Source: Candidatus Bathyarchaeota archaeon (GTDB lineage Archaea > Thermoproteota > Bathyarchaeia > TCS64). Taken from it: DNA of 64,000 bases. Shown in pieces: positions 41,732 through 44,159 of the stretch. The stretch is from contig JAOZHO010000028.1 in the NCBI GenBank assembly GCA_026014875.1, forward strand, positions 1 through 64,000. The letters run 5' to 3'. The notes under the pieces were generated by a model. The model searched no databases. It had not been told where the DNA came from and worked only from the letters and a program-made list of their open reading frames with translations. Positions within the stretch are counted from its first letter, which is position 1; the number at the start of each line of letters is the position of its first letter. A program made the translations under genes and the position numbers.

Positions 41732-42517
41732 TCATATCGTGAGGGCTCGGATTACTTCCGATGTGAAGGCTTCTCTGTCTCTCCACGAGGTGGTGATGGG
41801 GGTGGCGTTGACGATCAGGGTTTGTCCTCCTCTCCGGGTGGATTCTTGGGGGTTCTCCCAGCTGTTGATGGTGGTTAAGTGGAGGGTGGGGACTGTCTCT
41901 TTGAGGAGCTCTTCGGTCCTTACGGCGGAGCCGATGCTCCACTCGCATATGGGGTCGTAGAAGATCAGTGCTCTGCCCCGGTCCTCCGGTAGGGGGTCGT
42001 AGATTGGGGGCTTCCTCGGGGTGTATCCGCTGTGGAGCTCCAGGTACATCTCGCCTTCTCCCTGCCGGAAGCCTTTCGAGGCGTAGAAGTTCGCGAGGGA
42101 GGTGCCTTCCCCTGTCTCGAAGGCCTGGGTGACGGCGAATCGGGTGGGTTTGCCGCCGAGGCTTGGGGGTCCGTCCCTGCACTCTTTGAGGACGGTTTCG
42201 AGGAGCTTTGAGCTTATGCCCTTTTTCTGGTTTTCTTGGAAGGGGTTGTATGTGCAGCGGATCGCCATGACCATGTCCCTGGGTTCGGCTACCGTGGGGT
42301 CGGCCGCCTCGGGGTAGTAGAGTATCTGGGCCACGGGTCTCCCGTCGAGGTAGGCGATCTTGGTGCAGGGTCCGTGTTCCTCGAGCATCCGGGTAAGCCA
42401 CCTGCGTTTGAGTTCTATCCCTCTCTTCTGCAGGGGGTCTTCGAGTCGGTCGTGGGAGCATACCCTGAAGACGTCGTCTATATTCGATGCATCGATATCC
42501 TTGACAGTTATTTCCAT
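41732..42517 (-). CDS. GNAT-family N-acetyltransferase
   Basis: 261 residues from ATG 42517. The acetyl-CoA site is the central QKKGISSKLLETVL loop (form Q-x-x-G-x-S/G), preceded by PVAQILYYPEA and followed by SLANFYASKGFRQGEG. A further 80-residue C-terminal part is unassigned. The upstream TATA is ACAAATTTATC, with a GCGCGCG tract right after it. Target unknown. Confidence 0.75.
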   Translation of the reverse strand: MEITVKDIDASNIDDVFRVCSHDRLEDPLQKRGIELKRRWLTRMLEEHGPCTKIAYLDGRPVAQILYYPEAADPTVAEPRDMVMAIRCTYNPFQENQKKGISSKLLETVLKECRDGPPSLGGKPTRFAVTQAFETGEGTSLANFYASKGFRQGEGEMYLELHSGYTPRKPPIYDPLPEDRGRALIFYDPICEWSIGSAVRTEELLKETVPTLHLTTINSWENPQESTRRGGQTLIVNATPITTSWRDREAFTSEVIRALTI

Positions 42518-42653
42518 AGCTCTCGACACCAATGGGTGTTTCATAGTCATTATTGTTATGCCTGAAGTTCGCGCGCGGGATAAATTTGTTTCACTTGTAT
42601 GAATGTTGAAAACACGAAAAATTACTAGATAGGGTGAATAAACAAACCATGCG

Positions 42654-43193
42654 CTAGATGACGTAGCGATATGATACATGGGTTCCCGCAGTTTCGCTAT
42701 AACCTGACTTTCTTAAAATGTCCCCAGGCTTGGCTCCAAGGATGATAGATACAGGATCTGAGCCCTTGATCCAAGGAAACTGGTACGCTTCAGCGTGATA
42801 GAACTTGATAATTCGTTCTCGTTCCTCCTCAGATAAAATCTCAGTGGGAGAGACCAGTTTATGCTTGAAGATGTCGAATGTGGGTAGAGTGTGCGGTACT
42901 AGTTCAACCCCCAATTTAGGTGCGTTGAACCTAGCCGACCAGGTATATTTCACATTTGTTATGATTACGCCTTTGTCAGCCCCTGTTTCTTCAACGAGAT
43001 CTCTGAGTTCCCGTACATAGGCAATCCCAATGCCTCTCTGGCCGACAATGCCGAGAAATATTTGGTTCGAATCGCCTCGAGAAAGGAAGTAGGTCGTCTT
43101 ATCCTCTTCCTTCTCTTTTTTCTTCACCTTCAGTTTTCTGTACTTTATTAAAAGCGACGCTCGTTTCTCCACATTCGACATCGGTTCTCTCAT
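42654..43193 (-). CDS. Rpo5/Rpb5-like protein with endonuclease-fold N-terminal domain
   Basis: 179 residues. Residues 106-179 are the Rpo5 (RpoH) assembly domain of archaeal RNA polymerase: KHKLVSPTEILSEEE, SDPVSIILGAKPGDILR, SETAGTHVSYRYVI. Residues 1-105 resemble the eukaryotic Rpb5 jaw domain and Mrr-like nucleases (GQRGIGIAYVRELRDLVEE, ADKGVIITN, WSARFNAPKLGVEL) but lack the catalytic E/QxK. Ordinary archaeal Rpo5 is only about 80 residues and lies upstream of rpoB; this copy stands alone. It may be the real subunit or a second, specialised one. Confidence 0.75.
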   Translation of the reverse strand: MREPMSNVEKRASLLIKYRKLKVKKKEKEEDKTTYFLSRGDSNQIFLGIVGQRGIGIAYVRELRDLVEETGADKGVIITNVKYTWSARFNAPKLGVELVPHTLPTFDIFKHKLVSPTEILSEEERERIIKFYHAEAYQFPWIKGSDPVSIILGAKPGDILRKSGYSETAGTHVSYRYVI

Positions 43194-43883: not shown

Positions 43884-44159
43884 TTATTTATCCCTCTTTC
43901 TCACTATCTTCACATTGGTACTCAGAGCCTGACCTGGGAGGCCCTTCATGAATTTTACTCTGAGAGTCCCTGTTTTCCCATGGGGCTTCAATATGGTCCC
44001 AAATAATCTAGGCTCATCCTGAGGCCAGCCAACTTTCCACCCTATGAGATTGGCTACTTTAGATTCTATGTCTAAGACCTTGATTAGACACTTCTGGGTC
44101 CTCTGGGACTTTGGGCCTCTTCGATAGCTCTGTACTACACAGATATACTCCTCGTCCAT
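43884..44159 (-). CDS. rpl35ae: Ribosomal protein eL33 (L35Ae)
   Basis: 91 residues. The fingerprint is YRRGPKSQRTQKCLIKV, LIGWKVGW, PHGKTGTLRVKF and KGLPGQALSTNV, a full-length eL33 of the 50S subunit, found in some archaea. Promoter on the minus strand: CGCGCGAAAAATTTC about 40 bases before the ATG, a good BRE/TATA. A housekeeping gene inside the island, so the island is at least partly chromosomal. Confidence 0.92.
   Translation of the reverse strand: MDEEYICVVQSYRRGPKSQRTQKCLIKVLDIESKVANLIGWKVGWPQDEPRLFGTILKPHGKTGTLRVKFMKGLPGQALSTNVKIVRKRDK

Follow-up and report, generated by a model that had tools for sequence, protein, structure and literature searches.

The jaw domain of the eukaryotic RNA polymerase (RNAP) subunit Rpb5 (RPABC1) is treated as eukaryote-specific and as missing from archaeal Rpo5 (PMC2675907, PMC3906176, PMC6690254), and archaeal RpoH is stated to have no N-terminal extension (PMC3906176). 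In yeast, the T117-P118-S119 residues of Rpb5 lie ahead of the fork, in the minor groove of the DNA (PMC6690254). An artificial chimera denoted Rp5H was prepared by placing the yeast Rpb5 N-domain on Pyrococcus RpoH, and it was unstable in Pyrococcus (PMC3906176). In Sulfolobales, the subunit Rpo13 occupies a site that the Rpb5 jaw of eukaryotes fills in part (PMC2675907). In the open-licence papers searched, we found no description of an archaeal Rpo5 with a jaw, though earlier notice elsewhere is possible, and a survey of the small subunits of archaea from 2026 does not appear to mention one. Pfam and NCBIfam clearly label only the C-domain of the protein described here, which may explain why the N-domain has gone unremarked. 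Here, we describe a natural two-domain Rpo5 encoded in a 64,000-nucleotide stretch of contig JAOZHO010000028.1 (hereafter, the window) from a Candidatus Bathyarchaeota archaeon.

Two-domain architecture of the window protein

The Rpo5 frame reads from 43193 to 42654 as 179 codons and was judged to be a real gene, and the plus strand of the same interval contains stops throughout and is not an open frame. The features of this gene and its upstream neighbor are summarized in Table 1. A further minus-strand frame of 315 aa (41735–42679), which gave no Pfam match, shares 26 bases with the end of rpo5; its real start is probably located inside the frame.

Table 1. Positions of the two-domain rpo5 gene, its parts, and a neighboring gene in the window.
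Feature	Position	Strand	Remarks
Two-domain Rpo5 gene, 179 aa	42654..43193	minus	ATG at 43193; stop codon immediately 5' of ATG
N-terminal domain, residues 6–100	42894..43178	minus	Inactive Mrr-type REase fold, Rpb5-jaw-like; Pfam Mrr_cat / NA-iREase1, AlphaFold2, Foldseek
T84-W85-S86	42936..42944	minus	Aligns with yeast Rpb5 DNA-contact loop T117-P118-S119
Linker, residues 101–105	42879..42893	minus	Short; connects N- and C-domain
C-terminal Rpo5 assembly domain, residues 106–178	42660..42878	minus	PF01191 match
Ribosomal protein L35Ae gene, upstream of rpo5	43884..44159	minus	PF01247, E 1e-10

The initial annotation had assigned an archaeal Rpo5 domain to the C-terminal part of this protein. 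This was confirmed by a match of residues 106–178 to Pfam RNA_pol_Rpb5_C (PF01191) with an E-value of 7.3e-19, and the alignment located the Rpo5 core motifs in the same region. Against the NCBIfam subunit H equivalog, the protein scored 70.9 bits, which is below the cut-off of 83. The genus of the window has diverged and lost the VPKH motif, so that this miss weakens the equivalog label and not the domain assignment.

For the N-domain, the window protein gave weak Pfam matches to NA-iREase1 and Mrr_cat with E-values in the 1e-4 range, its Mrr_cat score being 20.7–21.2 bits against a curated cut-off of 21. The best relatives reached 1e-10 to 1e-11 with NA-iREase1 / Mrr_cat, and both families were matched by all 24 N-domains examined (E ≤ 1; best for Mrr_cat, 5.7e-10). 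None of these 24 matched Pfam RNA_pol_Rpb5_N, a model that detected Arabidopsis Rpb5 at 5e-29 as a control; the residues 4–89 that it covered lie about half outside the part shared with Bathyarchaeia. A phmmer search of the PDB aligned residues 27–179 of the window protein colinearly with residues 48–205 of Arabidopsis Rpb5 (E 2.8e-11). When a profile of the N-domain only (24 relatives, excluding the C-domain) was searched against the PDB, seven matches were obtained, all of which were eukaryotic Rpb5 in register, with a best E-value of only 0.006.

The structure of the full-length protein was predicted with AlphaFold2 from an alignment of 22 sequences (window and relatives), which gave a pLDDT of 92 and a pTM of 0.82; the five models scored 92, 80, 70, 70, and 68, only the best one being high, and the many Rpb5 structures in the training set could shape the predicted domain arrangement. 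A Foldseek search of the PDB with this model returned Rpb5 chains in the top 34 positions, two of them from the viral ASFV homolog and the rest eukaryotic, with a TMq of up to 0.83 over approximately 198 columns, corresponding to both domains. Single-domain archaeal Rpo5 structures ranked after them and were superimposed on the C-domain only (approximately 0.9–1.4 Å for the best). The N-domain was also predicted alone (pLDDT 92.6), and it matched Mrr-type endonucleases (MspJI, AF1548, and AspBHI) and Rpb5 about equally. This indicates that its fold is the restriction endonuclease (REase) fold, which is likewise found in yeast Rpb5-N (PMC551604). The Rpb5-like two-domain layout that had been proposed for the window protein was hence recovered by the colinear phmmer match, the predicted structure, and the Foldseek ranking.

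The N-domain had further been described as a nuclease fold devoid of catalysis, which agrees with the Pfam matches above and with an alignment in which the Mrr catalytic D and the E/Q-x-K pair are kept in none of the 24 N-domains. The position of yeast T117 is occupied by T in 22 of the 24 and that of S119 by S in 21, so that most members read T-[Y/W/Q]-S at the T-P-S position of yeast. The Ser119-equivalent is absent from all 13 Mrr sequences and all 6 sequences of a sister family. The yeast DNA-contact prolines P86 and P118 are not conserved among the 24 N-domains. The last N-domain strand (IE...) and the HELVP motif are 15 residues apart, in the window protein and in eukaryotic Rpb5 alike.

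Two variations of this module were observed. A second Bathyarchaeia family of approximately 175–206 aa (L107, L108, L109, L111, L112, L113, L114, and L115) has this REase-like module too and continues into a Cys-rich part, LC.AKCG...ESDC...SDNASFHFERGW, and it has kept the catalytic D and not the E-x-K. A two-domain Rpo5 of another genome (L123, G183:C43, 1065–1760, minus strand) contains a zinc-ribbon-like insert, CEHCGHMFPLKGGIRECPKC, in the N-domain before the last strand.

Distribution and gene order

Among 397 genomes of the phylum Thermoproteota, strong N-domain matches in frames of two-domain length were found only in Bathyarchaeia. There, the search of relatives showed the two-domain form to be usual in many families, and most of the genomes with this form contain no other Rpo5. 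The idea of a single odd gene or an artefact was ruled out, as the form extends across the clade and purifying selection acts on it. No viral homologs turned up in one scan of viral contigs. Five Bathyarchaeia genomes of 94–98% completeness (G009, G099, G307, G323, and G381) gave no PF01191 match at all, for which either a gap in the assembly or divergence of Rpo5 would account. In another genome, a second two-domain Rpo5 (L125, G034:C11:326391-326910) is interrupted by stops and a frameshift, and an intact copy is present in the same genome.

The single-domain rpo5 genes of Bathyarchaeia were located directly upstream of rpoB in all 19 cases examined, none having the N-domain, and the same location was found for 21 of 24 single-domain genes in other classes of Thermoproteota. 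Three single-domain genes outside Bathyarchaeia (L028, L036, and L041) have neighbors other than rpoB. This indicates that rpoH has been separated from rpoB in other lineages with no jaw being gained, and a gene-order rule that is perfect across archaea was hence discarded. No two-domain gene examined adjoins rpoB, and in ten two-domain genomes the region preceding rpoB contains no rpo5; the relocated fused gene probably took over from the operon copy of rpo5.

The genome of the window contains three two-domain rpo5 genes, on contigs C39 (the window copy), C45, and C50. No single-domain Rpo5 was found in it, and a normal rpoH beside rpoB is absent. Its only RpoB gene is located on contig C21, away from the window, in accordance with the location outside the rpoB operon that had been noticed at first. 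This location had been read as a hint of a second, specialised subunit. The window copy is indeed one of three paralogs, but the two-domain form is usual and all three copies have both domains, so that the extra-operon location marks the whole form and not a specialised extra subunit.

In the order to which this genome belongs, the two-domain gene comes after rpo12 and is usually flanked by an upstream gene that we take to be radical-SAM-like and a downstream gene that we presume to encode a prefoldin, both names being our own assignments; a Pfam search of the latter gave no match. The rpo12-rpo5 pair is conserved (L014, L016-L018, L020-L023, and L056-L074), mostly with the presumed prefoldin gene facing the pair. 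In eukaryotes, the prefoldin-like Bud27/URI is a working partner of Rpb5 (PMC6690254), and the resemblance to the gene setting of rpo12-rpo5 is possibly a coincidence. The C45 copy adjoins rpo12 in a canonical-looking setting and looks like a housekeeping gene. The genome also has two L35Ae genes, each of which is located near an rpo5 paralog, namely the window copy and the C50 copy.

Proposed role and origin of the N-terminal domain

The explanation that we regard as the best overall, and as probable, is that a dead Mrr-type REase domain was fused N-terminally to an ordinary Rpo5 assembly domain, where it would serve as a lower jaw for the downstream DNA, with a single origin in Bathyarchaeia convergent with Rpb5 and with duplication in the genus of the window. 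The C-domain would bind Rpo1C in the manner common to all archaeal RNAPs, considering its 44–49% identity and rmsd of approximately 1 Å to solved Rpo5. The N-domain would form the lower jaw where downstream DNA enters the cleft, close to the site taken by Rpo13 in Sulfolobales (PMC2675907), and its T-[Y/W]-S loop would contact duplex DNA that has yet to reach the fork, similar to the jaw of eukaryotic Rpb5. A single fusion event in one sublineage of Bathyarchaeia, outside the rpoB operon, is most likely, this single origin being moderately supported, and from the gene order the fused gene would have replaced the old rpoB-linked rpoH. The later duplication in the genus may have provided RNAP variants, one of them with the window copy.

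The two-domain Rpo5 probably works like Rpb5. It is improbable that the N-domain is a protein-binding or defence-related module (an inactive REase sensor) tethered via Rpo5 rather than a DNA jaw, although Pfam NA-iREase1 is named after a conflict-system domain, the second Bathyarchaeia family joins the same module to a Cys-rich part, and the yeast Rpb5 N-domain binds proteins as well (PMC6690254). Such a module is at odds with the status of the fused gene as the sole Rpo5 in most genomes that carry it, with its linkage to core genes such as rpo12 in the order of the window, and with a structural match to Rpb5 that extends to the domain arrangement.

The initial annotation regarded the window protein as a possible "ancestor-like" form linking the nuclease fold to the Rpb5 jaw, which the present comparisons did not support. 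One change inside Bathyarchaeia is enough to explain the two-domain state on an RpoB tree of 28 genomes (17 genomes with and 9 without), although the uniting branch is weak (62/94). In profile comparisons, the N-domain was aligned with archaeal Mrr over 87 columns (probability 98, score 73) and with eukaryotic Rpb5-N over 49 columns (probability 39, score 27.6), while Rpb5-N and Mrr gave a probability of 43 and a score of 28.6. The low scores are weak evidence, since the eukaryotic profile is shallow, consisting of 4 sequences, of which the Arabidopsis one was confirmed at full identity against the PDB. The tree of the N-domain grouped eukaryotes with Mrr (96/94), and the alternative clade of Bathyarchaeia and eukaryotes was not rejected, with a p-AU of 0.42. 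From these sequence comparisons, we favor a Bathyarchaeia fusion that occurred independently of Rpb5 and is convergent with it, as the N-domain resembles archaeal Mrr more closely than it does Rpb5-N.

We consider it unlikely, yet worth weighing, that one fused gene was ancestral to both the two-domain Rpo5 of Bathyarchaeia and Rpb5, being present in their common ancestor (or passed on by an ancient transfer), lost in other archaea, and turned into the Rpb5 jaw; the "eukaryote-specific" jaw would then have been invented in archaea before eukaryotes arose, and Bathyarchaeia would have preserved it. The identical domain order and linker length, the common T-x-S-A loop whose Ser is absent from Mrr and the sister family, the restriction of the PDB matches of the N-domain profile to Rpb5, and the p-AU of the joint N-domain clade are all consistent with such a gene. 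The C-domain trees (76 columns) did not place the eukaryotes, and positions among two-domain sequences fitted as well as others. Shared ancestry, however, requires many losses and a return to the rpoB operon, for which a single gain in Bathyarchaeia is simpler; the nearness to Mrr and the grouping of the eukaryotic N-domain with Mrr also speak against it, as does the rejection of C-domain trees in which eukaryotes were placed beside L002 or L057, which are close relatives of the window. Recent transfer from a eukaryote to the lineage of the window is disfavored by the same rejection and by the grouping of the C-domain with Bathyarchaeia.

The window copy is a conserved paralog. The three paralogs of the genome are 53–55% identical (54–55% between the window copy and the other two), and the window copy is approximately 75% identical to L054, its ortholog in another species. 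A dN/dS of 0.27 was evaluated for this pair (0.32 for the N-domain and 0.19 for the C-domain), both of which are under purifying selection. Contamination is unlikely to explain the three copies, since the contigs are 123–446 kb long, RpoB is single, and two related species carry two copies each. The genome (G000) also contains twelve TFIIB repeats, i.e., approximately six TFB genes (C10, C26, C27, and C50), which makes polymerase variants conceivable.

Compatible with the fused-jaw explanation, the window copy may be a specialised subunit of a condition-specific polymerase form, distinct from the housekeeping copy next to rpo12. We hold this as a tentative possibility, somewhat short of an even chance. 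The divergence of the three paralogs, the paired copies in each of the two related species, the purifying selection on the window copy and its ortholog, and the number of TFB genes agree with such a role, but the genome has only one RpoB gene, every copy retains the same domains and core motifs, and the neighbors in the window hint at no condition.

Comparison with known systems

The Mrr-type endonucleases (Mrr_cat; MspJI and AF1548) share the fold of the Bathyarchaeia N-domain and a profile similarity across nearly the whole domain, but the catalytic D and E-x-K are missing in all 24 N-domains. Compared with archaeal single-domain Rpo5 (RpoH), to which the C-domain is similar in sequence and structure as described above, the window form has an extra N-terminal domain and is located outside the rpoB operon. 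The hand-built Rp5H has the same architecture, whereas the Bathyarchaeia form is natural and clade-wide. Rpo13 is a separate small helix-turn-helix subunit that shares no homology, and its place at the position of the Rpb5 jaw makes it a possible functional analogue.

Eukaryotic Rpb5 is similar in the order of N-jaw and C-assembly domains, the dead REase fold, the linker length, the T-x-S loop at the DNA-contact position, and the predicted overall structure. It differs in length (205–215 aa versus 179 aa for the window protein, whose N-terminal part is shorter), and the Bathyarchaeia N-domain has no Rpb5_N match and is nearer in sequence to archaeal Mrr. The two-domain Rpo5 was not classed as a eukaryotic Rpb5, since its N-domain may not share descent with Rpb5-N, and convergence with Rpb5 is more likely than a role as its ancestor. 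A natural archaeal subunit with the Rpb5 layout means either that the origin of a eukaryotic polymerase part moves back into archaea or that a dead restriction enzyme was taken up by polymerases on two occasions at one and the same site, and it offers an archaeal model for the function of the jaw without the eukaryotic factors.
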